Source: Chromera velia
Lineage: Eukaryota; Sar; Chromeraceae
Direction of reading: 5' to 3'
Assembly (NCBI GenBank): GCA_018398765.1
Contig: JAHBMJ010004120.1
Span: 1 to 36,354 of the forward strand
DNA length: 36,354 nucleotides
The notes under the pieces were generated by a model. It was given only the letters and a program-made list of their open reading frames with translations. It searched no databases and was not told the DNA's origin. Made by a program: the position numbers and the translations under genes. Below, in pieces: positions 4,488-36,354 of this stretch. Every line of letters begins with the position of its first letter. The stretch's first letter is position 1.

Positions 4488-5060
4488 GATGAAGACGAAA
4501 CAATCGGGCTCCTCCTCATGGGAAGGGAGCAGTGCTGTCTTTTGATTCACGATTAGTGACTGTCTGTCTGCCCCATCGTTTCCCTCCGTACCTTTTTTTG
4601 CCCCATGTCCGTCTGTATCTCTCTCTCTCTCTGCCCGCGTGTTTGTCCGAAAACTCCTGTACTGAATTTTCGGGACAGAACTCGAACAAGCCGGCAGGCA
4701 GGCAGGCAGAAAGATCGAAGGCTACTTGGAGGGAGAACATCGGGGAAGAGTGAAGAGGCAACAAGAGCTGAACCCGATCACTCGATCTCTCTGGTCTCTC
4801 CCTCATGCACGTTAGTTGACTTTCTCCCCTGGTCTCTCTTCGTGCACCCATCCTCTCCTCTTCTGATCGGCACATCTCGACTCTCTGTCTGCCGCCTGTT
4901 AACCATCTCACAGTATACTTCGACCTTTCCCTCCCCTTCCCCTTTTCTCTGTCGATATGCATGCAAAGGAAACAAACAAACATCCACCGGCTCTGACCCC
5001 TACATTGGAGTCTTGACGGCGGTGATGAATTGGCTAGGAACTTTTCTTGCTGTCTTTCCT

Positions 5061-5089
5061 TCTGTCTGTCTGTCTGTCTGTCTGTCTGT
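5061..5089. repeat. Tetranucleotide repeat (TCTG)n
   Basis: Seven tandem units in a pyrimidine-rich intergenic stretch, just downstream of the giant gene. Confidence 0.85.
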
Positions 5090-5736
5090 TTTTCTTTCCT
5101 TCTTTCTTCATTTATTCGTTTCGTACTTTCTTTCCGTGGACGCGCTGGCCTGTTTCCTTCTCGACTGCACGACTTTGAAGAATCTGTCCTAGCTCGCCCA
5201 CAGTCCGCCTGTACGCTGGTGTCTTTTTCTTTTTGACTGGGCGACTTTTTTCCTTTTGAACGCGGCTACCGTCCGCTTGAAAGGAAAAGGACAAAATCTG
5301 ACGGCTTGAAGGGGAGAATCGCGACGCAGCCTCCGACAAATCCTCTCGGCCTCTTCCTCGCGCGTAGAGTGGAAATCTTGCATTAATGGCTCTCTTTCGA
5401 GCCCTGTGCCTTCTTTCTTTCTTTCTTTCCTTTCTTGCTTTCTTTCTTCACGAATGCATGCACGTACTCATTCATTGAAGCAAAGGCAAAGAAGAAAGCT
5501 GTTGCTTGGAAAGACTTTCTTTCGAAAGCTCTTCAAAAAGAAAAAAGAGAAGTCGACATTCATCATGTCACCTCCCCTCCCTTCCTTTGTGTTTAAATCA
5601 ACCCATGTCACCTGTTTGCCTTCCCCCCCCCCCCCNNCCCCCCCCAAATTAACTCTTTGTGTTGCTTTTCCGACCCAAACATCTTTCTTCCCCCTGCCCG
5701 CCCTCTACTGATTGAAAGAAACCAAGCCGATCTTTT

Positions 5737-5814
5737 TCATGCCTCCTCCTCAATCTCGTCTGGCGGGGTCAGCCCCTGGGCCAGCAGACGCTCCTCCTCA
5801 TCCGGTGGGTCCAG
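5737..5814 (-). other. Exon 40: acidic C-terminal tail and stop
   Basis: A 78-nt terminal exon after a GCGTCAG acceptor, phase 0. It encodes '[20 protein letters not shown]' plus five residues and TGA. Its acidic composition continues exon 39 well ('EEEKDDDG' then 'LDPPDEEE'), which supports the join. 'DEEERLL' is an acidic dileucine of the kind that binds clathrin adaptors, so it may act in endocytic sorting. Confidence 0.75.
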
Positions 5815-5837
5815 CTGACGCACGCACGCACACACAC

Positions 5838-5881
<44 letters not shown>

Positions 5882-8800
5882 ACACATGCGTTCATTCTAT
5901 TTAATCAATCGTCGTTCGTGTCCTTTTGTTGGAGTCGCCTCCACTCACGCATTCCCTTTCACAGAGAAATGAGAAGGACAACCAAAACGGCAGTGAGAGA
6001 AATCAACACATGAAGAGGCGTACTGACGATTTTGGTCGCACTGAGAGAGAGAGCTTGGGTGAGAGGGAACAGGAGCGCGCAGAAAGGAATTTAAATGAAC
6101 AGTCACGCAGCGAGACTGCTGGAACAATGGTGACTCCCTGACTGCCTGAGAGCCTCCTTGGCTGCTTGACTTCCTGTGCAGCTGCTGACTGCGTGACTAC
6201 CTCCCTCCCTCCCGTACTGACTGACTGACTGACTGACTGACTGACCCCGTCGTCGTCCTTTTCCTCTTCGTTGAATCGGAACGCGGCCGGGAGTAGAGAC
6301 ACGAACGGATCGAAGATGGAAGACCGGAGAATCGCCCAAAGGAGGAACAAGAGGAAGACCACCCAAATGATCGGAATCAAAAGGTAGTCGATCACGAAAG
6401 TTGACGTGTTCGCAATGATGAAGTCCAGCATGTCCTGTTCGATTGTCGAAACACACACAATACAGATTACACTTTGTTCCTCAGTTGAGAAAACACCACA
6501 GCCGCCGAGAAGAGTTTCATCCAGACTCGCAGACTTGGACAGCAATCAAAGAAAATAAATCCAAACAACTGAAAAAGGCATGAGCAGATGACCACGAAGA
6601 AGAAAAAGAAAAAATGAGAGACAAAGAATGAAGAAACCGATAGACAGACCTGGATTCTAAAGTCGGAGGTCAATGCGAACATCATCAGGTAGTAGAAGCA
6701 GAATGTCAGCCACCCGCCTCCCACTGCGTATCCGATGATTTCCTTTGTCCTCATGTTCTTCACCCATTGCCTCCTCTCTGCCGCATTCATCATCCATGGC
6801 GATTCCGGCTGGACGAGAATCTCCAGTTCCGATACTCGTGAGTTCTTCACCATCTTCTCGTGCCTGTCCATGTACGGTGTTCTCTTCTTGAACATCTGGT
6901 CGCAGAAGATCGGGACAGGCAAACTGAAGAGGATCGATAGGAACATTCCGATCAGCGTTCGGATGGACATTTCGAACTTCGCGTAGTCCCCCCCTCCGAA
7001 GCTGATGGAGATGAAAGGAGTGCCAATCACTCCACTCGTCTCAGTGCCTCCGAAGAACAGCGCCGTGATCTGCATGGGTTTAGCAATATAGGAACATGCT
7101 ATCGATAATGCATGCGTGTACATTCATTCTCTTTGTGGGAGAGGGAGAAGACAGCATAGAGAGAGGGAGGAGACAGCACAGAGAGAAGGATAAGACAGCA
7201 CAGAGAGAAGGATAAGACAGCACAGAGAGAAGGATAAGACAGCACAGAGAGAGGGAGAGACGGAGAGAGAGAGCGAGAAAGAGAGATGTGACAAGGTGCA
7301 CTCAATAGACGAAGACATTCAAACAGGTGTTCCTGCCCTTCACGGATGTTTTTGTGATTTGACTAAGAGAGATGATGCACAGAGATAGACTCCGGCCGAC
7401 AACAAGCGCCAGCAAATTGTGGCTCAACCATCTTCACTAAGATGGCTGCAGACTGACCGTCAGAGCTGTGAACCATGAGATCGCACTGAGAAGCCACCGT
7501 TGAATTCTGGTTCTCGACGGATTGTTGTCGTTGGTCTTCGAGATTGGGTGGTCCCTGCAGGCAGCCAGGCAAGCAGACAGGGAGACAGGGAGAGGGAGAG
7601 GGAGAGAGCGTGCATGGGAACCAGAAGTACCCTTTCCCGTTTTCCGTTCCCCCCGGATTGCAGAACGAAAATTCGAGTCGTCGTGATGATCAACAACACT
7701 TCGAAGAACACGACTGGAAACACAATGAATGAATGAATTAATGAATGTCGCATGATGCAGAGACAGACGGACCTCACAACCACCTGGTAGGCGAACTTCC
7801 AGGTAGACCATGTGGTGAACCTCAACCTCTCCTCCTTCCCGAATGCGAGGGTCTCAGCTGTCTCGTCCTCGATGGCTTTCTTGGCCTCTTTTCGCACAAG
7901 CTCTGCGAAGTCTTCTTTGGTCAGCAATCGGAGACTCGACCAGCCCTCAGGCATTCCCGCCTTCTTCTCTGCAAGTGCCACTGGCTCACGAGGCGCCGCC
8001 GCAGCACTGCTCATTCCTCTGGGTTCCTTTGCGAGAACCTCAGAGACGCCGAGACCCTCACAAACCTCACAGGAGAGACGGAATCGCATACCGTCAGAGA
8101 GAACGCAAATGATGTGGAAGGCCTTGTCGCCTGCCAGGATCATGCTACTGCTGAAGGATGCCCTGGAGGCTCCTGAGGGTGACCCGTCTTTGCTCGGAGG
8201 TGCCAGGAGAGTGTTGATCTTCTTCGGACTGCTGTCGTCCGCAGAGACATGCTTTAGGGCGGTGAGACTGCGGACGCTGTGGTCTCCGTCGTCGTCAATT
8301 TTCTCTTCCGGCGCTTTCTTGTCGACTCTGCCCACGCAGACCTGCGCAGGATCGTTGGAAGCGCACGCAGCTCTTTTTTTTAAATCAAGGTGAGATCGAA
8401 GTCTTTCAATCTCATACGCCTGACTGAAGATGCGCAGTATCCGAATGGATGGTGAAATCGTTCTTCGATGGATTGACAAATTTAAAGGGAATCGAAGGAA
8501 CGAAACGCGACGTAAAACAATTATCGACTAGTTCTGAATAGAAATATTCTACCTGAACAAACAGACAGACGGACATACCTGTTCGACAAATTTGAAGGGC
8601 ATGACGAATGCTGGTTGAGGAGCTCCGAAGACTTGTTTCTGGAAGTCGGTCTCTGTCATTCCCACTCCCTGAGCAAACAGCTTCCTGGCATACTCAGGAA
8701 TCTGCTCATGGGCGTCAGCCAGGAGAGTTGCACGGTCCTTTGCAGCCACAAAGACGGTGGTCTCCCTCTCGGGAGGCCACTGCATCCATCCCTCTCCTCC

Positions 8801-11800
8801 TGCCGCGCTTTTCTCGACCGACCCCCTGTTCGAATGATTGGCATCTTGCTGCTCATGCTCGTCTTCCTGGTCAATCCGGATCTTGTAACAGAGAGGCTCG
8901 AACTGCAAGCAAGGAAAACAAAAGAAAGAAGGGAAAAAAGAAACACATTGCTGCTCAGTCGTTCATTCATTCATTCATTCATTCATTCATTCATTCATTC
9001 AATTCATTTTTTCAACATGAAACTTTTCTTTTTCATACCCAATCCTGCTGTTCTTCCAGAGTTGGTCGACTCACGCCCTTTGTTTGCAGCGCGAAGAGCC
9101 TGAAGGCACTATCCATTGGCTGCTCAAATTTTGGCACACTAAATGAAAAGACCTGAGAAAAAAGCAGTCGAGAGTGCGAGCAGATAGAGGGCAAGTGAAG
9201 GAAAAAGAAAAACGAAGGGAAAGCAACAAGCGAGAAGAACTGTCTCTCTCTCTCTGACTGGAAGGAAGGCTAGGCTGACCAGTAGGCCCCTCTCTGTGAC
9301 ACGAATGACGTAGACGATGTCTCTTTCCTTCTCTGTGCCGATGTCGATGAATCTTTTGGACCTTGTGGCGGTGCTCTTTCTTTGGGCCAGGGAGAAGAAA
9401 GTCGACTTCCTCTGAGGACCCCCAGAGGCATTCGTAGGAGATCGCGAGATGCTCTTCCTCGTTGCCACGGAACCTCGGAGAGAAGTCATGGATCTGAACA
9501 CGATGGTTCCTTGAACCAACCCCAGAGTCTTCTTCATGGCCGCATCACCCAAACCCTTGTGAAGCTGCTCATCAAGGAGATCGGGGTCTGCAACGCTCTC
9601 ATTCTCATCTCCGTTGCCATCCAAGCTGTCGCCTTCATCCCCATCAGGGGCTGCAGGGAGATCGTCAGGGCCCTCGCCCTCCCCTGAACCTTGCCGCTCT
9701 GATGCCCCTTCCTCGCTCAGCTGGCCCCTTTCCCTGTCGTTGCTGTAGGGATTCTCCATGTCCTCCATGCTTTGGTTCGGAAGGCCGTCACTGTCCAGTA
9801 AGGACATGGAGGCCTCCACGTTGATGTTCAACTCATTCATCGCATCGTTCAAGCTCTCAGTGTCGAAGAGTTCGCCGTCTTTCGGCCTTGCGGGGAGCGC
9901 ACCTGCTTTCAAGCCTCCATCCTCTTCCTCCTCCTCCTCTGCGTAGACCTCCGCCTCTTCAATGAGGTCCTCAAGAGCTTGCAAGGCGTCCTGAGCAGCC
10001 CTGCGTTGCTTCGGATCGGTCGAGATCGTCAGAGACGTTCGGCTTTCTTCTGCAGCCTCGAGACAATCAACAGACGATCGCGCGTTGGGGGGTGCCATCG
10101 CGAGAGTGGGACGGGGGGCATCCAAAGGTCTGTCTCTGAGGGGAGACTCCATGTTGACTGCCTGCTCCTGGATTGTGGAACCTGGAACGTGGGAGGATGT
10201 GTCGTCTGTCTGTGACAGCCGCTCCATCACGTAGGCGTACTCCGTCCATTTATCCCAAGCACGATTGGCCGCTGCTGGCGACACGGTGTGCTTCAGGACT
10301 TCTTCCTCAGCCTTCAAGGCGGCAGCACTTCCTGAGGCAGAGGCAAGTTTGGGCATTTTGCGTCTGAGGAAGTTCAGGGAGTCGACAACTTCATTGTGGA
10401 AAGGGAAAACCTGCTCGCCCCCGAAGTGAAGAGCGAGGCGGACAACCACGAGAGGGCCCTCGACGTCCGAGAGGGCCCCGGCCCCTGCGTCAAGGAATGC
10501 GGGCACTGTGCCGGGGACGGTGTTTTTCAGAGATTGGGGAGCGACACGTCCGACACCACCAACAACGAGTCGGTGGATACGGGCCCATCCTGGTTTGGTA
10601 CTCCGGTCCTGTTTGAGGTATTCCCATGTCGCCGGGTCGGCCCAGTCGTATCCCTTCGGTTCCTTCTCTCCGGTCTTGTCGAGAATCCACTTGAGAGGCC
10701 CGCCGGCAGCAGCCGTCTCTGCCATGTTGACCTCGAAAGTAACCAGCTTGGGAGGAAGGAGGGTGGTCCACATGGTACCTCGGGCATCGAAGACTTCTCC
10801 GTCGTCCCTCTGGGGACTCATCATGTTCGCAAGGGGAAGCATCAGCCCCCTCCATCTGTCCTCAGTGCTACCGTCGTCAGCCTTCGGCAATGGTTTGCCG
10901 TCAACTGTCTGGAGGAGAATCGCTCTATCGGTCAGGTAACATGTGGCCTCAGAGGCATCGACGGCGGCTGTGTCTCCTTGACGGGGCTGCATCCCTCCGA
11001 GAATGTCCACAAGGAGGGAGGAGAGGGTGCGGCCGTCTCCCAACGCCCCCTCTGGTACTGTGCGTGCCGACACACCTGCAAGGCATGGCAAGGCGTTCCA
11101 CTGATCAACTCTGGAGTCCTGCACTCCGGCATTGAAGGGCATCACGATGGTGTGGAGCTTCACCGAACTTGCGTTGACGTCTATGCCCTTCCGCGCAGCA
11201 ACCTTTGCCCTCCATTTGCGCGCAATGCGCGAAGCAGCGACATGCAGCTGCTTTCTACGGAGACGAGCGTGGGTTGACACATACTGTCTGAGCTCTCCCT
11301 TCTCGATGACGTGTTTGAGCGCCGAGCCTTTGTCCATTCCCTCGTCCTCCTGCAGTTTGGTTGCCATCGATCTGATGACCTTAAGGTCTTGGAGGGTCTC
11401 CGTCTCGTGCATCGTGGACTTCTTCCCCTTCTTCTTCGATCCGCAGAACTTCTTTGCGCAGATCTTGCAAGACTCTCGGCAAGGCTTGCAGCTGCACAGA
11501 AGAAATAGGGAGAGGGGTAAAAAGCGAGGTATGCACGTGAAAACATCATCAAACTGGAGGGAGGAGATTTAGGAAGGGAAAGAAAAGTGTCTGAACGCAA
11601 AACGAAAGGACCGTCTCGCCCGTATGTATTGATCTATGCTTGCATCATCGCATTTTGGGGGGGTTGTCAACATGTCATTCTTTGATTGACGCAATGTGCT
11701 GAGGGGAGTCGCATACACGACTGTATGAATGCCTCGTATGTCACGGTTGAGTCCTGTTCTCACGATTTTTGATTCACCCGAAGTGAGCCATAGAAGAAAG

Positions 11801-14800
11801 AGTTGACAAGTGGGGACAAAACAAAAAACTGCCCCACAAAACTGACGTCAGCCACATGAAGAGCGCCTGCCAGAATGTGGGCGGCCTGCCCTGTCTGATT
11901 CTTCTGATGATCTTCTCGTTCCTCAAGTAAAGGAGGGAGAGGAACATGAAGTCGTGCTGATTCTTCCAGTCGTGACGAGCGGCTCTGCATGCACACAACA
12001 GAAGATCGAAGGGAGAAGAGGCGATGCACAGAGAGAGACACATGCAAAACGGAGCGGACTCTCACTTCTGAAATGCTAACGGGGTTTCACTTTCAAACAC
12101 AGAGACTCCCTCACATTCAGGCGCCAATTGTTTCTTTTTGTGAGAGATTGCTCTACTCCAGGGGGCTCGGGGAAAGCAGATGAAAAAAGGCATGCAGATT
12201 GAAAACGCGTACAAGAGAGCAGTGAGAAGAAGTAGGAGCACTTGGCAAAGTGCAAGAGATGCCAACCCCAAGACAACTGTGTATCAAAACTGACTGACAG
12301 GACGAGGAGGACCAGATAGAAGCCGATGAAGAATGATATGATCCAGATCACTGGGTTCTCGGGGTTCGCGTTGGCTGCTTTGTTGAAGTCACTCAGCGGT
12401 TCTTCGTTGATGTCGTTGAAGATGTCCTTCACCTCCTCCCCTGCTGAGGGGGTCTCCTCCTTCGTCTCCTCGGTTGCTGGGGGGGTGCTTTCCTGGCTGG
12501 TCCCCCCAAATTCGGTCAAGTGACTGCACCGACAATGGAGCATCGAGGCAGTGCTTCCTGTGCCCGTCTCACATCCCTCAGTCGACCAGGCGGCGGCCGT
12601 GTCGTTCCAGAACGCGCACCCGGTCTCTTGGTAGACTCCGTTGACGTATCCGGTGCTTCTGGTCATCGGAACCATAATGTCAATCTTTTCAGAGAGACCG
12701 GAGACGGGCAGCGACTGACCACATCTGTAGAGAGAGAGGTCGGAAGACTCCGATGCTGCACTGGAGGTAGTGGATGACGGCAGAACAGACCGAGGGCTCT
12801 CATCAAATTTCACGGAGGTCACCACGATCGCGGAGGACGCTGGACAGGCAACCGTTGGGGAAGAGACCCCAGAAATCGGGAGAGCTGGGAAACTTGCGGA
12901 CATTCCGGATGAAGCAGTAGCGGAACCGCTCCCTCCTGTCATGTCTGAGAGTCCGAGAGGGGAAGAGGAAATCGAAATTCCTCCAAAGGAAGCCTCCGAC
13001 GCACTCGCACCCGCTGGCTGGCTCTTGGACATTGCTACCGCAGCCAGACGTACGATGTTCGCAATTCGGCCTGCCCCATCGTTGATCTTCCCAGGAGACG
13101 TCGTCGTGTTGGTGGCCGTGTCGCCTCCCAAAGCATCGACGGTGCCTTGCTGGTTACCGTACCTGTACGCATTTTGCAACCAAATTCACGTTTTTTATTC
13201 TACGCGTGGCCGGAAGTGTCCTTCTGCACGAGTCCCACCCCAACAAAAGTGCGCCGGCTGCCTGCCCGAATCGCTCACTGTCTCCCGGACTGATCGACTG
13301 ACTAACCTTCTCGCTGAATGAGTGACTGGCTGCCTCCCTGCCTGCCTGCCTGTTTCGATGACTGACTGCCTATCTGGCAGACTGCTTGATTGCATGATTG
13401 ACTGACTGACTGACTGACTTTCCGATCGACACAATAGAGGTTGAGATGGAGGCAGCTGCAGAGAGCATGGCTGTGACTGTGGAGGCAGGAATTTCGTCGT
13501 CCGAGTTGATGGCAGCGGACATGGCACACTCCAGGACAGTAGCAGCCTGCAAGGAGGGGGGGGGGNNNNNNNNNNNNNNNNNNNNNNNNNNNNNNNNNNN
13601 NNNNNNNNNNNNNNNNNNNNNNNNNNNNNNNNNNNNNNNNNNNNNNNNNNNNNNNNNNNNNNNNNNNNNNNNNNNNNNNNNNNNNNNNNNNNNNNNNNNN
13701 NNNNNNNNNNNNNNNNNNNNNNNNNNNNNNNNNNNNNNNNNNNNNNNNNNNNNNNNNNNNNNNNNNNNNNNNNNNNNNNNNNNNNNNNNNNNNNNNNNNN
13801 NNNNNNNNNNNNNNNNNNNNNNNNNNNNNNNNNNNNNNNNNNNNNNNNNNNNNNGGGGGGGGGGGGGAGAAAAACGTGTTGCACAGCTGACATCGGATGA
13901 AGAAGCGATTCAAGCGGATTCTGATGCGAAATCACTTCTCCTTCACAGCTTCTTTGTCCACTCGGTCTCAAAGTCTTCCACAATTCATATACCTTCCGTT
14001 CAATGTTTTCTGTCTCTCCAAGTCTCTCTGCGTTCCACATCCGGCACGGCACTCTAGCTGCCCCACATGGATGCATTCTAGCACTGCAGGTTAGCTTTCT
14101 TTCCCCCCTTTTCTTCATTCTAATTTATTTGAAAGAACCGACCCTCTTTTGGATCTCCGCCTGGGCGGCCATCTTTGCCTCTGCATCCTGTGCGCCCAGG
14201 CCTGTGCCTCCCGCCTTGATTGCTCTCCCTGCAGCTGCACTGCCGATCTCGGCAAGGTCCTTCACTGCTGTGACACTCTGCAGGAGAGCAGAGGCTGAGG
14301 CGGTCTGAGTGTCCATTTGAGTGACAGCGCTCTCAAGGACGGTGAGTGCAGATTCGGAAAACTCCTGCATCTCGAGGGCCTCCGCGTCCGTGAACTCTGT
14401 CTGGGTGTCGTCACCGCTGACATCCACCAGAGAAGTGGCAGATGAGATGAAGGTCAGAAGCTGCGCGGTGTCTGAACTCTGTACAGACGTGGACTTGGTG
14501 TCGATCGTCGATTTGATGGACGCAATGGTGGGGGGATTCGCGTTGGAGACTGTGAAGACTGCTGATCTGACCTCCCCCTGACTGCCTGTGGTATCTCGTG
14601 CCATCGCAATAATCTGGAACGACGATCCGACTGTTCCCGCTCGAAGTACAATCGTCAGTCTCTGTGCTGCGGAGCCACCAGTGTACCCCTGCAACACTTG
14701 GTCCCCTTCCGTGACATCGCTGTACGTGCTCGTGGCTGCGTCCAAGGAAACCTCCTGGAGGACGAATTTGTACTCCAGAGTGTCCGTAGAGATATCGGAG

Positions 14801-14987
14801 GCCCAGCCGGACTGCTCGAGCGCAAACTCGGTCGAAAATGCCTCCCCGGATGCGGGAGAGACTGTCACGGCACCCCTGGAGGGCGGTCCGGTCACCTTCA
14901 TGAGATCAAAAGGGGCCACCGGGTTGAAGGTGTGCCAGGTGTAGTCGTCTGCAGACGCGGGTATGTTTTCACAGATATTAGCACACA

Positions 14988-15025
<38 letters not shown>

Positions 15026-23753: not shown

Positions 23754-23788
<35 letters not shown>

Positions 23789-29700: not shown

Positions 29701-30458
29701 AATTCGTTCCGAAGTCCGGAGACGCCCAGAGCTCCAATTTGCTCGGGTTATTCACTGAGAGGTCCATACTCATTCCCCTGACGCCAAACCAGGCAAGGGA
29801 GATGGAGCAAGGCATGATCAGGTAGAGCTCAAGGCCTGAATCCATCCCTGAGGACAAACCTTGTCCCCGGCCCTCCTCCGACTTCCACGCTGAATAGGCG
29901 TTGCTGGAAGTGATTACCATAGCGTCGCCCTCACCGTCAAATGCACCGACAGGGGGCCACTCGTTGTTGTTCCAAGTCGAGTCTGTCCCCGTGCTGTTGT
30001 ACCATCTCTCGTTGGTCATCACTCTGTATCTACCTGGACAGGTCATGCCTGTGTAGTCCTTATAGAAGGTCACCAGATTGTTGTGCAGCCAGCTGGTGTC
30101 CTTGATCCATGTGTTGCCGTACCCAATGTCAGACTGAGGTACTCTGTTAGTCGTCAGGTCTTGGCACACGGTCACGCCGTCACCCACGTATCCGTAGTTA
30201 CATGCGCAGGTGAAATTGTTGGGCACATTTGTGCAGGTTCCGTACATGTTGTGGCAATTGTGCGTGTTTTTGTAGCACTCGTCTTCATCTGCAGCAGGCC
30301 AGTCAGCAAGGGGAGAAAAAAACAATGCAGAATGCCATCTGTGGACGGAAACACTCACTCTTGATTTCATGCCCACAAAGTCGAAACGCTGCAAAATGAA
30401 CAAGATCAAGCGCTCTAAAAGAAACCTCCATTCAAAACCAGAGAGAGACATACATTGC

Positions 30459-30489
<31 letters not shown>

Positions 30490-30809
30490 GAGCAGCGGAT
30501 AAACCAATGGAAAGGCACAGAAAGACAGACAAATCGGCAGACAAACAGAGAAAACGACAGAGATGAAGACAAGATAGGTCGACAGAACTAAGCAGGTGGA
30601 AGAGAGAGACAGACAGACGGACGGACAGACAGATTGACAAGCTGACAGAATGACAGGTAGACAGACTCGCCACACGTTTTCTTTTCTTTTTATTCTTTTC
30701 TGTCTCCTTCTTTTGCTTGACTCAGGAATCAAAATCACACAGAAACGCAGCTAGATGCCGCCATACATCGAGAAAGAGAGACACATCTACACGCACACAC
30801 ACACACATA

Positions 30810-30893
<84 letters not shown>

Positions 30894-33193
30894 CAGAATC
30901 AGAGAGAGGAGAGATGCTCCACAATCAATTAGGCACACAAACGAAAAATGACGACGCGCCAGCAAACACGTGATTGGACAGAGATGCCCCCCCACATCCC
31001 CCTTGAAATCGCATCTCTTATCTCACGTCTCCCTTCTGCCCCCCGGATAACCGCACAACTCCCCAAAACCCGCCCACACACGTACCTGTCTGGTTAAATG
31101 TGTACAGGTACACCTCATCGACCGAGAGAGGCTGGTTGTCTGTGGCCACGCGAAGGAACTCAATTTTGACGCTAGAATATGTTCCGTTCACTCGGACGTC
31201 AACCTTGTCCTGGGTATTCCAGTAATTCACGTCCAGACCCGAGAAATCGCCCATCCAGTTCCACTTGTTGCCGTTGTCGTCGGACCCCCAGATCACCCCG
31301 CTGATCGGAGCCATGTTCAGGTCTGCGGCGCGCTTGATCGTTACCTGACTTACGTCGACGAAGCAGGGCGTTTCGATGATCAAGTCGACCGAAGGGGTGG
31401 AGTCCGAATACTGGGAGAGATTGATGTTGGTCTTCCAGATTTGGTTGTCGGGATTCGAGCTCATGGTGTCGAATGCTCCGGAAGGAGGCATCTCGGTTGT
31501 TTCGATCATCGTTGTTTGCATGTCCCCATACCATGGTGTGTTACTCTTCACCCTGTACTTTCCCTCGCATATTCGGCCTGACATAAGGTGGTAGTCCGCA
31601 TAGAAGGTGTATTGGCCTTCGTATCTCTCCATCGTATCCTTCATCCACATGCTCGAGGCCACGTCAGAGGGAGGGATCTGAATCAAGGGATTGCACCAGT
31701 ACCCATCACCAGCGAACCCCTCTGGGCACTGGCAGGTCCAACTCTGCGCACCTTCCATGTTCGTGCAGTTCGCATTGGCGCTACAGTTATGCCTGCCGTC
31801 TTCGCACGGACCTGCATGCATGGATGAGGGAGGTGACAGATGCATGGAACAATATCTCAAGCCTCTCATGACACAAAAAGAATGAAAAGAAAGACTATGA
31901 TGACGGAACTGGATGGAGAGAGTAGACAGCCAGGCAGTAAGTGTCCCGGAATCCCGACACAGAGATCAATTTCTGCATTCTGCTTCTGTTCTATAAGTTT
32001 GTTTTTTTGTCTCATTCTCTCTGTAACTCGTTCACATCATGGCTAGCTCCAGATCAGACTGACCAGGAGTCCATGACTGTGCGTGTAGTTCGATGTCGGA
32101 GAGAGAGACGAGTGAGTTCGTTGGATTGCTCGATTGCTTCACAACGAACTTGAACGAGCTGAAGTTTCCAGCGAATGCGTTGGAATAAAAGTGCCTGGTT
32201 TCTTCAGCGTTCCAGCTCAACTCGCTCTGAAATGAGCCCAAAGAGACCCACATGTTCCCAAAATCTGCCGAGCCAAACACCTCCATCTTGCTGGGTGTCT
32301 CGAATTCTTGACCTGTGTCGTTCCGAGCTTGAACCGAGAACCATGCAAGAGAGAGGAAACAGGGAAGCTCCAAGATCAATTCGACGTTAGCATCACTCTC
32401 CTGATACCCTGCAACGTTGGACTGCACTCGCCATCCGTTGACTGTGTTCGACCCCCCCCCCGTGATACGATCAAACGCTCCACTGATGGGCCACTCGTTG
32501 TTGTTGAAATGATCCTGATGGTCCCCTTCTGCTGGGACATTCGTCTTCACACGATACCTTCCAGGACAAGTCGACCCGAAATAGTCCTTATAGATCGTTT
32601 TCTGGCTGCTGTACTGATTCGCGCTGTCCTTCATCCATGTATTCCCGGCCCCAATGTCTGCCGGAGGGAATGTCTCGGCAGGGTCGCAGGTGGTGAAGCC
32701 GTCTCCAACCAGCGTCGCGTTGCACAGACACCCGGCGCCACTCGGCAGATCGGTCCACTTGGCGTTCGGGTTGCAGGTTCTCTCGGATCGACAGTTCATA
32801 CCGGTCGCTGCAAAACCAGAGGTTGGATAAAATCATCAATCAATGAGTAAATGAGTAGATCGAGTAAGAAACCAAGGAAGGGAGGGAACTGCACAAGGAG
32901 CAAGAGATAAACAAATAAAGAGATAAATAAATAAACAAAGAAAGAAAGAAAAAAAGAAACACCTGATTGTGGACATGCCAAGGAACCGTCACGCTTGACA
33001 ACTTATGAGTTCAGAAGAAATCGAAAGTCCAGGGGACGAATGAGTTAGAGGGAGAGATCGGCTGTCCCGCAGGTGATCGGGCCACTCCGTGAGACTCACG
33101 AACTTACGAGAGAGACCTCTCCCTCCCTCTCTCCCTCCCTCCCTCTTTCTTTATCTATCCGTTGCTACGTTGTTGAATGACAGAATTACTGAC

Positions 33194-33228
<35 letters not shown>

Positions 33229-33873
33229 TTGCCTGTCTGACTGACTCACCGTCTGTATCTGCCTGCCTGCCTTACTGTCTAGCTGACTGACCGTCGCACC
33301 ACTCAGTGGGAATGAGGGTGACGTCACCGATCGATGCCTGTCCGTCAACCGCTGAGGAGATCTGCAGAATTTCGATCTTGAAGCAGTTGAACTTTTCTGC
33401 CGAGTAGACACCGAACGTCTTGCTCTTCCCAAAAGTGGTCCACTCAGATTCCAACCCCGCATGAGGGGCCAGTTCCGTCCATGTCCCTGGAGACACCGAA
33501 CAGCCGTTTGTTCCATACAGGATGTGCTTCGCTGGCATTTCCACGTATTCATTGCTGGAGCCCCATTTTCGGGTCTCGAGCACGTATGAGTGCAGAGCAA
33601 TCTGACAGGGGAGCTCCAGGATGATGGAGGGGGGAGTAGAGTCGTCCCCGTTCGAGTACGAGAATACGCTGCCCGATGTCTGCCAGAATGTCCGCGTGTT
33701 GGTCACGTCCTCGTTCTTCTGGTCGAATGCAGAACTCACCTGCATGCGAGACCATCGACACAGCAAGAACAAATTTCACGGACACACGTGCATGCTGACG
33801 ATTTGCGGGTGGGCTTGCCTGTGCATGAGTCTCGGAGCTCCTCTGCGTGCATGTGCGTGTGCGTGTGCGTGTG

Positions 33874-33912
<39 letters not shown>

Positions 33913-34926
33913 GTGTCCGAGAGTTGGTCAAAAATGTGTGAGTCGTTCCTATCCGTAGACACTCGTAGTCCGCCGATTCGCTTTTGTCACATACGGAACC
34001 GACCGGATACTCATTGGAGGCGAATGGGTCCGAAGCATGGTAGGAGTTCCACTGTGTGTCTGTTTTAGCTCGGAACGTTCCCGGGCAATTCAGGCCCATG
34101 TAGTCGGTCGCGAGAGTGGAGATAGAGGCGTACTGGGTGGTGCTGTCCTTCATCCACATGTCTCCTTGGTTGACGTCTCGAGGGGGAATAACCGCCATCG
34201 GGAGACAGTTAAAACCCATGCCGCCCTCTATGTTCTCACAGCGGTATCCTGTGGTGCAGTTGTGCTCGTCTCTTCCGCATTCATCGATGTCTGCGTTCAG
34301 GGAGACAGACAGACAGAGCAACATCCGTCAAAATAAACAAACTGACTGAGGGAATGCAGATTCAGCGCATGGATGGCAAGCAGTCATGAAGAAAGCAGGT
34401 TTTTCCCTATGCGCTTCCATGCTTCTGCTGGAGGCTTCAGCACCGAATTCTTCCGACATACCCGCACATGTACGCTCTTTCATCGAGTAAAGACGTGCTG
34501 TCACTCAGCAGGCGAATTTTCACTGCAACAGATTTGCAAGAAAACCCGAGCGAGAGAGAGAGCTGTATGGAAGGAAAGAAGGAGGAAACTCACTCACCTC
34601 TGCAGTATGCCCCGTTCCCGAGTGCTGTCTCGACGCAGAACTCTGTGGCCCCACAGGTTATGCCTGCGCATTTTGAGAGTGCCGGTCTTGTGACTGCACG
34701 CACATGCATACACGAGGCAAGAGAGAAGATGGAGACTCTCAGAACACATCAAGTCCACCACCGCGTTTATGTGCATGTATACATGTGCATCCAGTCGCCA
34801 CTGTGAGCACGGCGGCACGCAAGGGGGGGCTGGAGAGCGAAACACCCAACACGCATGCAGACCAGACGAAACGGAAAGCAGCTGAAGGCCGTGCAAAAGT
34901 TCAAAATGAAACACAAGGTGTTACAC

Positions 34927-34966
<40 letters not shown>

Positions 34967-36354
34967 GGGGCATCTACGAAAATGTAGATACATACGTAGG
35001 CCGAGAGAGGGGGGGGGGGGAAGAGAAAGGGACGAGCGAAAGAGAACAAGAGAAGAGAAAGGTGAAGAAGTCGGGCAGAGAGGAAGGGTAAGACGGATTG
35101 AGCGATCGGAAAGCATGAAACATGAGGGAGACATGTCTCCACCCAGACAGACTCTTCTCGAGATTGAAGGTATTTCCAGTCGCTCCTTTTGCAGTCTGAC
35201 AGCCGTCGTCCATTCCGGTCGTGTAGAACGACTCCTCTTCATCGAAAATTGCTGTCCAGAAGGCGCCCTGCAGCGCGTTTCTGTCCGGCATCCTCATCGT
35301 ACCCTCAAAGGTGAGTCCGGTGGGCAACACGATGTTCGTCCAAGTGTCGAAGATTTCATTTGCAGCCACCGAGGGGTCGGCGTTCATCGCCAGTTGTCCA
35401 TGTTCGTTGTTCCCAGCCGCTTTGATGGACCCGTCTTCGAACTGTACAAAGAATGACTCATACGTGAGCATACAGGCTTTCACAGAATCGAACACTTTCG
35501 TGGGACTACGATATGGCACCTGTGCGGCTGCTGTGCCGGGTTTGCCGAGAATACCAATGAAATTGCCGTCTTCGTTCTTTTCAGCCCCCCATATGTAGAG
35601 GCCACCACTCTCCATGAGCATGAAACCGTTGAATCTCGAGAGACCGATTTCTTTCACCACCTCCCCAGGAGGAACCGTGAGCTCAGTCATGCCGAGCTCG
35701 TAAACTTCTTGGTCGACACCCAAAACCCAGTGTCCAGGAGTTGTGTCGGTATTTGTACTGTCAAGGGCTACGGTGTTGCCCCCGTGGTACCCCCACCCGA
35801 AAACCCGATTGTCTGATGTGAGGGCGAGGCTGGATGATTTTCCGAGAGCGACCTGGACAACCTCGTATCCATCTGCGGTGCCTCCCATCACACGTGTCGG
35901 GGTGAGAATTGGATTAGCGGTGTCGGCAGGAACGGCGCGGCTCTCGCTGTTTCTGCCCCACATCCACAGTTCGCCATCCGTGGAGAGTAGCCCCCTGCAT
36001 GCGTGCGTCACTTGATGCCGATACACATTCATTTGGTTGCTCATCGAGAAGAAGTGAGAAATGCGCGTACTCACTGGTTCAAGTTTTCACGCATAAGTTT
36101 GTGTGTTTGCAGCACCACATAGGTACACAAAAATGGGCCCTCGTAATGAAAGAGCGGAGTCCGAGCCTCAAGAGGCACTGTGCAGATATTCCGACCAAAT
36201 GTCCTCGTACAAATACCCGCTGACACGGCAAAACGTAACGCCCCGGCGAAAAGGGGGCTGAAAAATTCAAGCAGCAAGACAGGTGCAAGTAGCAGAGTGT
36301 TGAAAGGATCCAAGTGACTCACAGACAGGTGTACGGAAACGGCAGCGCCCGCCT
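5737..36354 (-). CDS. Giant modular REJ/GPS polycystin-1-like membrane protein, 40 exons in window, N-terminus beyond right edge
   Basis: The listed exons (separate entries) join into 18,063 nt, 6,020 residues plus TGA, with every phase matching. Order (residues counted from the window edge): RCC1-like propeller 1-292; Cys-rich link 292-324; eight EGF plus jelly-roll-like units 324-2329; eight EGF domains 2329-2656; sushi-like region 2656-3144; EGF and DUF4215 about 3144-3230; Ig/REJ-type region to about 4330; GPS with the cleavage tripeptide HLT at about 4548-4550; first membrane span about 4602-4622; Cys cluster and long cytosolic loop 4668 to about 5750; about four further spans 5780-5985; acidic tail to 6020. 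In polycystin-1 and REJ proteins the GPS undergoes self-cleavage and the ectodomain binds ligands. Here the TM2-TM5 part is recognisable, including a 'SRTRIQRW' element like the FTRVQR element of that family, but no channel part follows. The likely role is a surface recognition or adhesion receptor. The main uncertainty is the boundary of exon 2, and any exon lost in the gap at 13566-13854. Confidence 0.85.
5819..5874. repeat. (CA)n microsatellite next to the last exon
   Basis: About 28 dinucleotides with single-base interruptions. It directly precedes the acceptor of the terminal exon on the - strand, where a polypyrimidine tract would be expected; there it reads as TG repeats. Confidence 0.88.
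6217..6244. repeat. Tetranucleotide array (CTGA)n at a splice donor
   Basis: Seven units that begin at the donor of the last intron on the - strand. Confidence 0.85.
6246..6434 (-). other. Exon 39: last membrane span
   Basis: A 189-nt phase 0-0 exon: '[19 protein letters not shown]', then the strongly hydrophobic '[17 protein letters not shown]', corresponding in position to TM5 of polycystin-1. It ends in acidic 'NEEEKDDDG' at a GGG/GTCAGTCA donor. Reading through the donor would give a low-complexity Ser-Gln-Val tail, which is why I splice here. Confidence 0.78.
6650..7069 (-). other. Exon 38: membrane spans like polycystin-1 TM2-TM4
   Basis: A 420-nt phase 0-0 exon. '[10 protein letters not shown]' completes the span begun in exon 37. 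'[18 protein letters not shown]' matches the position of the third span, with the helix-breaking prolines typical of this family. A basic loop follows ('[16 protein letters not shown]'), then '[20 protein letters not shown]' as the fourth span. Confidence 0.78.
7151..7260. repeat. 22-bp minisatellite, five copies
   Basis: Units start at 7151, 7173, 7195, 7217 and 7239. The middle three are identical (ACAGCACAGAGAGAAGGATA plus AG); the outer two differ at a few bases. It lies within the intron between exons 37 and 38. Confidence 0.9.
7458..7554 (-). other. Exon 37: polycystin-like FTRVQR-type element and start of TM2
   Basis: A 97-nt exon (phase 2 in, phase 0 out): '[19 protein letters not shown]', followed by '[13 protein letters not shown]'. 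Proteins of the polycystin-1/REJ family have an FTRVQR element immediately before TM2; 'SRTRIQRW' sits at the same place here. Confidence 0.72.
7773..8419 (-). other. Exon 36: end of cytoplasmic loop before the second membrane block
   Basis: A 647-nt exon (phase 0 in, phase 2 out). It contains '[15 protein letters not shown]', an ordered region '[18 protein letters not shown]', a charged helix '[18 protein letters not shown]', and ends '[17 protein letters not shown]', which leads into the next membrane segment. Confidence 0.72.
8579..8902 (-). other. Exon 35: cytoplasmic loop continuation
   Basis: A 324-nt phase 0-0 exon: '[19 protein letters not shown]', '[15 protein letters not shown]' and '[14 protein letters not shown]'. 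A soluble, charged region with no named domain. Confidence 0.7.
8961..9008. repeat. Tetranucleotide repeat (CATT)n
   Basis: About eleven units in the intron between exons 34 and 35. Confidence 0.88.
9039..9152 (-). other. Exon 34: cytoplasmic loop continuation
   Basis: A 114-nt phase 0-0 exon starting '[17 protein letters not shown]'. No motif is recognised. Included because both splice sites and the frame fit. Confidence 0.65.
9301..11491 (-). other. Exon 33: cysteine cluster and long cytoplasmic loop
   Basis: A 2,191-nt exon (phase 2 in, phase 0 out), about 730 residues. It opens with a cluster '[17 protein letters not shown]' (C-x2-C-x3-C-x2-C-x4-C), then a Lys-rich stretch and helix-rich sequence including an IQ-like '[17 protein letters not shown]'. 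The middle has ordered-looking sequence I do not recognise ('[18 protein letters not shown]'). The last third is acidic and low in complexity, then Ser/Arg-rich with possible kinase sites ('[19 protein letters not shown]'). Polycystin-1 relatives carry a PLAT domain in this loop; I see none. Confidence 0.75.
11847..11984 (-). other. Exon 32: segment after the first membrane span
   Basis: A 138-nt exon (phase 2 in, phase 2 out) encoding '[19 protein letters not shown]', then basic '[15 protein letters not shown]' and hydrophobic '[11 protein letters not shown]'. The basic stretch fits a cytosolic side. The last part could be a short re-entrant or amphipathic helix. Confidence 0.72.
12299..13162 (-). 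other. Exon 31: GAIN/GPS region and first membrane span
   Basis: An 864-nt exon (phase 2 in, phase 2 out). It ends the ectodomain with a full GPS: 'YRCGQSLPV', then '[17 protein letters not shown]', then '[13 protein letters not shown]'. All expected Cys and Trp positions are present, and the His-Leu-Thr cleavage site lies at 12514-12522. Known GPS motifs self-cleave between Leu and Thr/Ser. An acidic stalk of about 50 residues follows, then the span '[18 protein letters not shown]'. Confidence 0.88.
13419..13546 (-). other. Exon 30: helical stalk segment before the GPS
   Basis: A 128-nt exon (phase 0 in, phase 2 out). It is Ala/Ser-rich ('[14 protein letters not shown]', '[14 protein letters not shown]') and continues the helix-prone region. 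Its donor GTCAGTCA starts a CAGT array on the - strand. Confidence 0.72.
13566..13854. other. Assembly gap (289 N) inside an intron
   Basis: The gap is flanked by poly-G on both sides, so assembly broke in a homopolymer. The exons on each side (29 and 30) join in phase 0 without missing sequence, so no exon need be lost, but one with length divisible by three cannot be excluded. The given length may be nominal. Confidence 0.95.
14143..14948 (-). other. Exon 29: REJ-type module and Ala/Ser-rich stalk
   Basis: An 806-nt exon (phase 1 in, phase 0 out). It holds the most recognisable REJ element: '[17 protein letters not shown]', then '[10 protein letters not shown]' and 'LEYKFVLQE'. These match the 'P..G.al.T.F...W.....L.Y.F' pattern of REJ domains. 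The rest is Ala/Ser/Thr-rich and helix-prone ('[15 protein letters not shown]'), like the GAIN-type helical part that precedes a GPS. Confidence 0.78.
14982..15025. repeat. Compound (CA)n(GA)n microsatellite
   Basis: A CA run followed directly by a GA run inside the intron between exons 28 and 29. Confidence 0.85.
15153..15450 (-). other. Exon 28: REJ-region continuation
   Basis: A 298-nt exon (phase 0 in, phase 1 out). It encodes '[19 protein letters not shown]' and hydrophobic/acidic segments such as '[19 protein letters not shown]'. It has no cysteines and no named motif. It sits between two REJ-type exons and is most likely part of the same extended module. Confidence 0.65.
15687..15744. 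repeat. Tetranucleotide array (GACT)n at a splice donor
   Basis: About fourteen units with one interruption. The array begins at the donor of exon 27, so on the - strand the donor GTCAGTCA is itself the first unit. Confidence 0.88.
15746..18084 (-). other. Exon 27: EGF, DUF4215 repeat and Ig/REJ-type region
   Basis: The largest exon (2,339 nt; enters phase 1, leaves phase 0). It starts with an EGF ('[17 protein letters not shown]', '[13 protein letters not shown]'). Then comes a DUF4215-type repeat: '[18 protein letters not shown]', '[16 protein letters not shown]'. After this it becomes Ser/Thr/Ala-rich with beta-rich stretches. One of them, '[16 protein letters not shown]', followed by Trp and paired Cys, matches the start of REJ-type Ig-like modules. 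A second '[13 protein letters not shown]' element repeats the pattern. The donor GTCAGTCA opens a long CAGT array. Confidence 0.78.
18363..18863 (-). other. Exon 26: cysteine-rich segment resembling exon 23
   Basis: A 501-nt phase 1-1 exon: '[17 protein letters not shown]', '[16 protein letters not shown]', '[19 protein letters not shown]' and 'RPACPG'. The CKC/CSC pair followed by a Y-x-C...C unit parallels exon 23, so the two are probably old duplicates. Confidence 0.6.
19041..19073. repeat. Tetranucleotide repeat (ACAG)n
   Basis: About eight units in the intron between exons 25 and 26, followed by degenerate GGCA repeats. Confidence 0.85.
19156..19392 (-). other. Exon 25: divergent cysteine-containing segment
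   Basis: A 237-nt phase 1-1 exon beginning 'VRNCTLNTP' and ending near '[19 protein letters not shown]'. It could be a degenerate sushi-like unit, because it sits between two such exons and has the same phase. I cannot name it with confidence. Confidence 0.55.
19658..19912 (-). other. Exon 24: sushi (CCP)-like domain
   Basis: A 255-nt phase 1-1 exon starting 'DTCELTET', then '[19 protein letters not shown]', 'ATWTCGS' and a final 'YPVC'. The C...Y-x-C-x-x-G-Y...W...C order matches a sushi domain, although it is longer than the usual 60 residues. Confidence 0.66.
20077..20547 (-). other. Exon 23: cysteine-rich, sushi-like segment
   Basis: Phase 1-1 exon of 471 nt. The N-terminal half has paired cysteines ('[15 protein letters not shown]'). 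The C-terminal half has the sushi/CCP-like pattern '[16 protein letters not shown]', then 'TASC' and a final 'GPAC'. Sushi domains normally mediate extracellular recognition. The family call is by pattern only. Confidence 0.6.
20723..20839 (-). other. Exon 22: calcium-binding EGF domain
   Basis: A 117-nt phase 1-1 exon: '[16 protein letters not shown]', then '[18 protein letters not shown]'. Last of the consecutive EGF exons before the sushi-like region. Confidence 0.84.
21129..21248 (-). other. Exon 21: calcium-binding EGF domain
   Basis: A 120-nt phase 1-1 exon: '[17 protein letters not shown]', then '[18 protein letters not shown]'. It has a canonical GTAAGT donor, one of only three GTAAG donors in the gene. 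Confidence 0.83.
21513..21635 (-). other. Exon 20: calcium-binding EGF domain
   Basis: A 123-nt phase 1-1 exon. It reads '[18 protein letters not shown]', then '[18 protein letters not shown]'. It follows an intron rich in CA and TACA repeats. Confidence 0.82.
21693..21760. repeat. Compound (CA)n / (TACA)n microsatellite
   Basis: Alternating CA and TACA blocks in the intron upstream (on the - strand) of exon 20. Confidence 0.85.
22054..22173 (-). other. Exon 19: EGF domain
   Basis: A 120-nt phase 1-1 exon: '[17 protein letters not shown]', then '[18 protein letters not shown]'. Six cysteines. The calcium motif reads D-E-L-E, a weakened version. Confidence 0.82.
22461..22571 (-). other. Exon 18: EGF domain
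   Basis: A 111-nt phase 1-1 exon: '[18 protein letters not shown]', then '[18 protein letters not shown]'. Six cysteines, short C1-C2 loop, no calcium motif. Confidence 0.82.
22857..22988 (-). other. Exon 17: calcium-binding EGF domain
   Basis: A 132-nt phase 1-1 exon: '[20 protein letters not shown]', then '[19 protein letters not shown]'. All six cysteines are present; the loop before C6 is slightly longer than in its neighbours. GCATGCAG acceptor. Confidence 0.83.
23351..23476 (-). other. Exon 16: EGF domain lacking cysteines 5 and 6
   Basis: A 126-nt phase 1-1 exon: '[18 protein letters not shown]', then '[18 protein letters not shown]'. The frame is open and the splice sites are good, but the fifth cysteine is Val (GTC) and the sixth is Ser (TCT). 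The C1-C3 and C2-C4 pairs are kept; the C5-C6 pair is lost as a pair. Confidence 0.82.
23725..23788. repeat. Tetranucleotide repeat (GACA)n
   Basis: About fifteen units with one GAGA interruption, in the intron between exons 15 and 16. Confidence 0.88.
23874..24005 (-). other. Exon 15: calcium-binding EGF domain
   Basis: A 132-nt phase 1-1 exon: '[19 protein letters not shown]', then '[18 protein letters not shown]'. First of eight consecutive stand-alone EGF exons. All six cysteines and the calcium site are intact. Confidence 0.85.
24259..24894 (-). other. Exon 14: jelly-roll-like module, unit 8
   Basis: Phase 1-1 exon of 636 nt, the last module of the series. Signature: '[15 protein letters not shown]', '[18 protein letters not shown]', 'APSGVFDRV', '[18 protein letters not shown]', '[17 protein letters not shown]', '[12 protein letters not shown]' and '[13 protein letters not shown]'. 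The strand order and the 'S.DG..W' region recall F5/8 type C (discoidin) folds, but the N-terminal TWTKD/CPGRYR part is not part of that family as I know it. Confidence 0.82.
25191..25298 (-). other. Exon 13: EGF domain (EGF half of unit 8)
   Basis: A 108-nt phase 1-1 exon reading '[14 protein letters not shown]', then '[17 protein letters not shown]'. Six cysteines are present; the calcium-binding start is lacking. The acceptor is preceded by three GCAT units. Confidence 0.8.
25605..26225 (-). other. Exon 12: jelly-roll-like module, unit 7
   Basis: Phase 1-1 exon of 621 nt holding only the module, because the EGF is in the preceding exon. Signature: '[15 protein letters not shown]', '[18 protein letters not shown]', '[10 protein letters not shown]', '[19 protein letters not shown]', '[17 protein letters not shown]', '[11 protein letters not shown]' and '[13 protein letters not shown]'. 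This is the cleanest copy for building a profile. Confidence 0.82.
26666..26797 (-). other. Exon 11: calcium-binding EGF domain (EGF half of unit 7)
   Basis: A 132-nt phase 1-1 exon. It reads '[18 protein letters not shown]', then '[16 protein letters not shown]' and a last Cys. All six cysteines and the D-x-N-E calcium motif are present. Donor GTCAGTCA. A 20-base copy of this exon's first bases and acceptor lies 100 bp upstream (see repeat entry). Confidence 0.82.
26783..26902. repeat. 20-bp direct repeat 100 bp apart, enclosing an 18-bp inverted repeat
   Basis: TGCACTCGTTGATGTCTGCA occurs at 26783-26802 (start of exon 11 plus its acceptor) and again at 26883-26902. Between them, 26828-26845 and 26860-26877 form a perfect 18-bp inverted repeat with a 14-base loop. 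The shape is that of a small hairpin element flanked by a target-type duplication, or a local duplication with an inverted insert. Confidence 0.85.
27001..27090. repeat. Degenerate (GGAT/GAAT)n repeat
   Basis: Imperfect tetranucleotide units inside the intron between exons 10 and 11. Confidence 0.75.
27266..28030 (-). other. Exon 10: EGF plus jelly-roll-like module, unit 6
   Basis: Phase 1-1 exon of 765 nt. EGF: '[18 protein letters not shown]', then '[20 protein letters not shown]'. Module: '[17 protein letters not shown]', '[14 protein letters not shown]', '[10 protein letters not shown]', '[18 protein letters not shown]', '[18 protein letters not shown]' and '[12 protein letters not shown]'. 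This copy departs most in the linker between the EGF and the CPG motif. Confidence 0.78.
28035..28126. repeat. Tetranucleotide repeat (CATT/CGTT/CATC)n
   Basis: Over twenty units directly adjoining the acceptor of exon 10. On the - strand the acceptor GAATGCAG emerges from a GAAT array. Confidence 0.85.
28368..29123 (-). other. Exon 9: EGF plus jelly-roll-like module, unit 5
   Basis: Phase 1-1 exon of 756 nt. EGF: '[16 protein letters not shown]', then '[16 protein letters not shown]'. Module: '[19 protein letters not shown]', '[14 protein letters not shown]', '[10 protein letters not shown]', '[16 protein letters not shown]', '[18 protein letters not shown]' and '[12 protein letters not shown]'. 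The 'GPCEDGR' opening shared with unit 3 points to a relatively recent duplication of the pair. Confidence 0.8.
29506..30288 (-). other. Exon 8: EGF plus jelly-roll-like module, unit 4
   Basis: Phase 1-1 exon of 783 nt. Calcium-binding EGF: '[19 protein letters not shown]', then '[18 protein letters not shown]'. Module signature: '[15 protein letters not shown]', '[18 protein letters not shown]', 'WPPVGAFDG', '[18 protein letters not shown]', '[18 protein letters not shown]' and '[12 protein letters not shown]'. The donor is GTCAGTCA. Confidence 0.8.
30458..30489. repeat. Tetranucleotide repeat (GACA)n
   Basis: About eight units in the long intron (30289-31085) between exons 7 and 8. Confidence 0.85.
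30790..30896. repeat. Compound (CA)n(GA)n(GACA)-type microsatellite
   Basis: CA, then GA, then AGAC-type units, all within the same long intron (30289-31085), which holds nothing coding that I can see. Confidence 0.85.
31086..31811 (-). other. Exon 7: EGF plus jelly-roll-like module, unit 3
   Basis: Phase 1-1 exon of 726 nt. The EGF begins '[16 protein letters not shown]' and closes 'GFAGDGYWC'. The module has '[14 protein letters not shown]' and 'MPPSGAFD', but the usual CPGRYR reads 'CEGKYR' here. '[16 protein letters not shown]' and '[13 protein letters not shown]' follow. Closest in plan to unit 5, which shares the 'GPCEDGR' opening. Confidence 0.8.
32064..32807 (-). other. Exon 6: EGF-like plus jelly-roll-like module, unit 2
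   Basis: Symmetric phase 1-1 exon of 744 nt. The EGF part is divergent ('[16 protein letters not shown]', then '[16 protein letters not shown]') and lacks the usual DxDEC start. The module part is a good example of the family: '[15 protein letters not shown]', '[18 protein letters not shown]', 'WPISGAFD', '[16 protein letters not shown]', '[18 protein letters not shown]', '[12 protein letters not shown]' and '[13 protein letters not shown]'. Confidence 0.8.
33193..33227. repeat. Tetranucleotide repeat (CTGT)n
   Basis: About eight units inside the intron between exons 5 and 6. Confidence 0.85.
33292..34290 (-). other. Exons 4-5: EGF plus jelly-roll-like module, unit 1
   Basis: Exon 4 (33995-34290) opens with a calcium-binding EGF start '[12 protein letters not shown]' and the module signature '[14 protein letters not shown]', then '[11 protein letters not shown]'. 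A phase 0 intron (33740-33994, GTATGTGA donor, GCATGCAG acceptor) interrupts the unit just before the 'SAFD' that corresponds to GAFD in the other copies. Exon 5 (33292-33739) carries '[17 protein letters not shown]' and '[12 protein letters not shown]'. This is the only unit with an intron inside the jelly-roll part. Confidence 0.78.
33846..33916. repeat. (GT)n / (GTGC)n microsatellite
   Basis: A GT-rich run inside the intron that splits module unit 1. Confidence 0.85.
34598..34693 (-). other. Exon 3: short cysteine-rich, EGF-like link
   Basis: A 96-nt symmetric phase 1-1 exon between a GCGTGCAG acceptor and a GTGAGTGA donor. In the linking frame it encodes '[17 protein letters not shown]' and then '..GAYCR'. 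Four cysteines are spaced as in a reduced EGF-like or follistatin-like motif. Confidence 0.6.
34930..34963. repeat. (CA)n microsatellite
   Basis: A nearly perfect CA run in the intron between exons 2 and 3. Confidence 0.88.
35153..35994 (-). other. Exon 2: RCC1-like beta-propeller
   Basis: It begins after a GCATGCAG acceptor. Repeated motifs of the RCC1 type are visible: '[13 protein letters not shown]', '[15 protein letters not shown]', '[19 protein letters not shown]', '[19 protein letters not shown]', and a last partial blade with '[11 protein letters not shown]'. Four to five blades are visible here, and more would be expected upstream. The 3' limit is uncertain. I chose a weak donor GTCTGT because it gives the phase 1 end that exon 3 needs; the nearby GG/GTGGAG would give phase 2. 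Confidence 0.72.
36323..36354 (-). other. Exon 1 (partial): RCC1-like domain, N-terminal side cut by window
   Basis: Only 32 nt are present before a GTGAGTCA donor. Read in the frame required by the next exon it ends 'PFPYTC', with a split Leu codon (phase 2 intron). This joins smoothly to the first blade of the RCC1 domain. The signal peptide and true start must lie to the right of the window. Confidence 0.55.

Follow-up and report, generated by a model that had tools for sequence, protein, structure and literature searches.

The window analysed here comprises bases 1-36354 (36,354 nucleotides) of contig JAHBMJ010004120.1, called C3495 below, from the 177.8 Mb assembly of Chromera velia; an earlier note on this DNA, made from the letters alone, had rightly supposed a protist genome. 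The minus strand carries a gene for a candidate modular surface receptor, with 38 exons from 35994 to 5737, which was delineated by translation, splice sites and paralogues and reads into 5,949 residues without an internal stop. The last exon (5737..5814) closes with a TGA stop at 5737, a stop found at nearly the same place in three paralogues, and the 5' end is missing off the contig edge. The earlier note had joined forty exons into one protein of more than 6,000 residues; the single in-frame gene was retained, the exon count became 38, and a total above 6,000 residues is expected because the missing 5' exons would add to those in the window.

Exon borders were placed by eye on the minus strand, checked by translation and then corrected against the paralogues. 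All 37 introns are GT-AG with a CAG acceptor, 25 of them lie in phase 1, and retention of an intron would bring in a stop or a frameshift in 36 of the 37 cases, the exception being intron 27. The start of the first exon, set at 36032 in the first model, was replaced by an acceptor at 35994 after comparison with the paralogous locus C3608. An extra exon of that model (exon 33, 9075-9152) was dropped: the database protein P0096 joins exon 32 straight to the next exon, the splice sites of this direct join are exact in three paralogous loci, and the extra exon finds no significant match in them (best E 2.2). Exon 31 is absent from the P0096 database model but was kept, since its conservation is 96% in both C3608 and C612 and 74% in C1987. 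Sixteen of the 37 introns begin with GTCA (for example just below 15746, 13419 and 6246), and in several of them this start opens a long CAGT repeat (gtcagtcagtcag...) as its first unit, which puts the donor inside a microsatellite.

Using region-by-region tblastn, the product was compared with three sister loci of the same assembly (C3608, C612 and C1987), and the module order was found to be kept in all three. The contigs of C612 and C1987 start inside the gene; collinearity sets in at the jelly rolls in C612 and at exon 24 in C1987 and holds to the end in both. In the C3608 locus, on a contig of 141.9 kb, RCC1 lies at 61004-60201, the jelly rolls and EGFs occupy the stretch between about 59 and 39 kb, and exons 22-38 extend down to 24024, with 64-96% identity per exon from exon 22 on, except for a 43% piece in exon 34. 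At its start, four exons up to and including the RCC1 exon join in frame into 665 residues, in the order of a start with a hydrophobic signal-like stretch, an extra jelly roll and a first RCC1 propeller half, followed by the parts present in the window; Pfam detects two RCC1 stretches in this 5' part. The window therefore probably lacks the signal peptide, one jelly roll and half a propeller.

Within exons 22-38, acceptors sit precisely at the homologous base for 17 of 17 exons in C3608, 17 of 17 in C612 and 13 of 15 in C1987, where the other two are one codon off. Donors do so in 15 of 17, 15 of 17 and 13 of 15 exons; the misses are the last exon, where a donor is naturally lacking, and exon 36, which runs on into exon 37 without an intron at the three sister loci. 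The count was confined to exons 22-38, since the repeats in exons 1-21 make homology ambiguous. Since the order is conserved in three paralogues, as are the splice sites of exons 22-38, the architecture is beyond chance. In the DNA, the module order, the intact His-Leu-Thr (H-L-T) of the GPS motif described next, and the three collinear paralogues (two cut by contig ends) are the firm part of the description.

RCC1, EGF, DUF4215, GPS and, partially, REJ score above Pfam cut-offs in the receptor. The GPS motif (PF01825, E 1.4e-8, 41.8 bits in the genome search) lies at 12508..12618 on the minus strand with paired cysteines, and its H-L-T, at 12514-12522, is intact here and in C3608, C612 and C1987. 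Cleavage is predicted, and likely, between L4535 and T4536 of this triplet. The best structure match of the GPS was to adhesion G-protein-coupled receptor (GPCR) structures. The REJ domain match (PF02010, exon 28, 14446..14898, minus strand) covers profile positions 309-450 of 452 and scores 28.8 bits in the genome search and 29 bits with the exon alone, against a cut-off of 25. No REJ match was obtained in two scans of long joined stretches, in the database protein P0001 or in exon 26 upstream of the match, and the genome search lists REJ for only two of the four loci, C3495 and C3608. The match is taken as real because both the exon-28 and the genome-search scores pass the Pfam cut-off, so the REJ of the earlier note is upheld as a partial profile match; its DUF4215 and GPS stand without change.

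Downstream of the GPS, hydropathy predicts five membrane segments, at residues 4591-4609, 5710-5728, 5759-5777, 5834-5854 and 5879-5897, the fourth being weak, with a 19-residue hydropathy score that does not exceed 1.5. The first begins about 55 residues after the GPS and spans intron 30/31 (11981..12351, minus strand). Segments 2-5 (residues 5710-5897) are encoded at 6327..7493 on the same strand. The 1,100 residues between segments 1 and 2 (4610-5709), predicted to be cytoplasmic, contain no Pfam domain. Exons 32-34, which make up most of this region, are 42-75% identical in the paralogues; exon 32 (9280..11491, minus strand), a large conserved part of it, is 64-65% identical in C3608 and C612 and 42% in C1987. 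Exons 36-37 are 67-86% identical in the three paralogues. A 255-residue query of the last part found distant relatives (18-44%) on further contigs, and a GPS and such a relative occur together at 8 of 14 GPS loci, at one of these only at E 0.056. Another relative of the last membrane region (C182:43367-44398, plus strand) lies on a contig with no GPS match among those listed.

The spans had been called polycystin-type in the earlier note, and this was not borne out. No PKD_channel domain (PF08016) was found in the receptor, no PLAT was found in it at E<=0.1 or in P0096 at E<=10, and the spans gave no match to polycystin-1 in the PDB with queries of one, two or six sequences, the last being a profile of the window, P0096, C100, C859, C182 and C185. 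A genome search for PLAT found none, but control genomes gave none either. C3495 carries no PKD_channel match, but seven sites on other contigs of the genome have one (C3619, C2475 with two, C1461, C3441, C3867 and C3611; one has internal stops), and these are possible separate channel partners.

The outer part of the receptor is built of repeated modules, all on the minus strand. Exon 1 of the window (35153..35994, its start set by C3608) holds RCC1 repeats (PF13540, 8.9e-13; PF00415, 4.4e-5) that correspond, by comparison with C3608, to the second half of the propeller, so that the RCC1 propeller named in the earlier note is supported. Eight jelly-roll units follow by count: unit 1 in exons 3-4 with an internal intron (33293..34198), unit 2 in exon 5 (32065..32676), unit 3 in exon 6 (31087..31683), unit 4 in exon 7 (29507..30148), unit 5 in exon 8 (28369..28995), unit 6 in exon 9 (27267..27896), unit 7 in exon 11 (25606..26217) and unit 8 in exon 13 (24260..24877). 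When the jelly-roll exons are scanned one by one, the EGF part of exons 6 and 8 exceeds the Pfam cut-off and that of exons 3, 5, 7 (just under) and 9 falls short of it; for units 7 and 8 the EGF lies in the preceding exon. Thus the eight EGF/jelly-roll-like units described earlier persist as eight jelly rolls, of which one, unit 2, has a predicted structure, with an EGF above cut-off for only part of them.

Structure prediction suggests a galactose-binding-like fold of the CBM32/discoidin kind for these units. They would share the jelly-roll fold of CBM32, F5/8 type C (discoidin) and galactose-oxidase N-domains, and differ from CBM32 and F5/8 type C domains in a length of about 200 residues, low-confidence loops, two invariant cysteines and the want of a Pfam sequence match. 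None of the eight units, unit 1 being scanned in two pieces, matched a Pfam family above cut-off in a scan at E<=10; unit 6 gave sub-cut-off matches only, to Peptidase_M30 (0.024) and DUF4930 (0.088). Pfam scanning and structure prediction had both been suggested beforehand, and of these the former supported the modules, and the latter gave a fold for one jelly roll and, for exon 30 around the GPS, where a GAIN fold was sought from two sequences only, a model with a predicted local distance difference test score (pLDDT) of 40.

After the jelly rolls come eight single-exon EGF modules (exons 14-21, 20723..24005, all introns in phase 1), supported by Pfam as the eight EGFs proposed earlier; in the piece holding exons 10-21, EGF_3 matches 10 stretches and EGF_CA 8. 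Exons 22-25 (18363..20547) encode cysteine-containing modules that are 57-79% identical in the paralogues; they had been called sushi-like, and they remain so as conserved modules whose Sushi score, 20.5 bits, falls just below the cut-off of 20.7. Exon 26 (15746..18084; 53-81% identical in paralogues) holds an EGF-like stretch, DUF4215 (about 17807-17917, E 5.9e-8) and a 670-residue region before the REJ match.

The jelly-roll unit is a genome-wide expanded, Pfam-less, CBM32-like module. At least 150 genome matches were obtained (150 scored of 392 candidates), of which five are the window's own; the weakest of those scored has E 4.1e-24, they lie on 33 contigs by row count, and 11 have an internal stop. 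Dense arrays also occur on contigs with no listed GPS match, such as C3590:52739-77930, C3927:110466-127521 and C679:3044-21907. In a prokaryote genome collection, a search suited to close relatives only gave 17 stretches that fit the pattern, none of which was confirmed. Elsewhere in the window, a single-exon open reading frame at 1494-3176 on the plus strand, convergent with the receptor gene, has weak WD40/beta-propeller matches under Pfam cut-offs, and a 205-residue open reading frame at 1-618 on the plus strand runs off the contig edge and has no Pfam match at E<=10.

The alternative that survives best, held somewhat short of even odds, is that the protein is a true member of the polycystin-1 (PKD1/REJ) family that no longer carries PLAT or the six channel spans, as in the shorter sea urchin SpREJ proteins. 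REJ adjoins the GPS upstream of span 1, and an arrangement of one plus four spans equals an 11-span protein minus spans 6-11. SpREJ proteins have 0-11 spans and PLAT is missing in 5 of 10, according to the passages cited (PMC1934368). Set against this are the partial REJ match and spans 2-5, which find no PKD1 counterpart in the PDB even with the six-sequence profile.

A less probable alternative, now quite unlikely, is that two neighbouring genes have been joined, one for a secreted RCC1/jelly-roll/EGF/DUF4215 adhesin and the other for a separate REJ/GPS membrane protein. The databases split the C1987 gene around the exon 28/29 junction into two proteins, P0001 and P0096, which are listed under Chromera velia CCMP2878. 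Two of the blocks in which they match C1987, of 293 and 67 residues, are 100% identical; the remaining nine are 84-99% identical, and some of these nine probably extend past exon borders. In the window, the exon 28/29 junction holds an assembly gap of 289 N. However, the splice sites of this junction agree exactly in each of the three paralogues, the REJ match lies upstream of it and the GPS downstream, and P0096 has no REJ match and, by eye, no signal-like start. C3608 is continuous on one contig from its signal-like start to the last exon, and the worry over two genes, for example with a break between the EGF block and the REJ/GPS part, is thereby answered as far as DNA can answer it. Among database proteins of about 1,913-6,086 residues (2,539 candidates scored), a query running from the GPS to the end found none at E 0.01, and a span-region query (about 929-2,954 residues, 415 candidates) found one match, P0096. 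No near-identical protein of the C3495 gene was found at the searched lengths, longer or shorter models being outside the candidate set.

Two further readings are disfavoured and very improbable. An adhesion GPCR would account for the modular ectodomain and for the closest structure match of the GPS, but it would need seven spans where five hydrophobic segments are found, the first followed by 1,100 residues, and the receptor has no 7tm Pfam match. A cysteine repeat modular protein (CRMP), of the alveolate family needed for rhoptry discharge that is reported to be expanded in C. velia, would likewise be very large and combine EGF modules with several spans, but the passages cited describe nine spans in CRMPs (PMC9815656) as against five here, a GPS and a REJ are present, and no Kringle Pfam domain was found in the receptor.

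PLAT/LH2 follows span 1 in many, though not all, polycystin-1/REJ members. Compared with PKD1, PKDREJ and SpREJ, the Chromera receptor has the same REJ and then GPS just before the first span, a huge multi-domain outer part and a large predicted cytoplasmic stretch after span 1. Unlike them, it has no detected PLAT or channel domain and five spans instead of up to 11, and RCC1, jelly rolls, EGFs and DUF4215 replace the PKD repeats and the C-type lectin; its REJ match is partial, and no sequence kinship of the spans was detected. The brown alga Ectocarpus encodes a further algal protein with REJ, GPS and several spans, Esi0130_0068, with 6-7 predicted spans in 1,427 residues (PMC4700764). It differs in that a polycystin channel match is reported and that the passages cited name no RCC1, EGF or jelly rolls (PMC4700764). 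GAIN is also encoded in diverse non-holozoans (PMC12716839), and the GPS motif has been recorded in a heterotrophic flagellate (PMC7852580). Pairs of the outer modules also occur in proteins P0009 and P0028 (RCC1 and DUF4215) and P0030 (EGF and DUF4215), which differ in having 636-1,117 residues and precomputed Pfam domains without GPS or REJ; they are probably bacterial in origin because they are single-frame metagenome proteins beside Myxococcota matches.

In literature searches no description came up of a single chain combining RCC1, CBM32-like jelly rolls, EGFs, DUF4215, REJ and GPS, and the main text of the chromerid genome paper (PMC4501334) has no mention of GPS, REJ or polycystin. The unusual features are the combination of modules, the size and the CBM32-like module. 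The candidate new class of the earlier note is nevertheless too strong, because a REJ/GPS multi-span protein in Ectocarpus and non-holozoan GAIN genes are, from the passages cited above, already in print.

The preferred reading, with its shown, predicted and inferred parts taken jointly, is that these 3' 38 exons belong to one C. velia gene for a self-cleaving PC1-like surface receptor without a channel of its own, to which a probability of about 0.6 is given. Within the secretory pathway, GPS proteins are cut between Leu and Thr, and their two halves stay associated. By analogy with these, an outer part of more than 4,500 residues (RCC1, jelly rolls, EGFs, DUF4215 and REJ) would close with the GPS, be followed by hydrophobic segment 1, some 1,100 likely cytoplasmic residues and four further predicted membrane segments, and be cleaved at Leu4535/Thr4536 in the secretory pathway with the halves held together. 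Judging from their predicted folds, the jelly rolls may recognise a surface ligand, with a glycan as the likeliest candidate, and the EGFs may serve as calcium-stiffened spacers. A ligand or a pull would then loosen the outer half, and the five-span half might signal through the long conserved cytoplasmic region. Because no channel domain was found in the receptor, any gating of ion channels would need separately encoded PKD2-like channels, for which the genome has candidates; this step is speculative. The architecture is well evidenced, and the function is proposed by analogy.

More tentatively, and rather against the odds, such genes could form a lineage-specific chromerid class of self-cleaving, channel-less REJ receptors, each with about nine or more jelly rolls and an RCC1 propeller, that sample the surface glycans of partners such as coral, bacteria or gametes and pass force through GPS dissociation to separate PKD2-like channels, the jelly roll (at least 150 copies) being the main recognition module. 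The GPS construct is short and testable, and at least one of these genes (C1987) is cut into two entries in protein databases. Self-cutting REJ-type receptors are best known from animals, and Chromera, a free-living photosynthetic alga, is related to the apicomplexan parasites. If the preferred reading is true, a relative of malaria parasites has such receptors at a very large size. A set of at least four REJ/GPS receptor genes, together with the genome-wide jelly-roll expansion, would suggest that the ancestors of alveolate parasites had PC1-like self-cleaving adhesion receptors at their disposal, and separate 'receptor' and 'channel' genes would then be placed outside animals.
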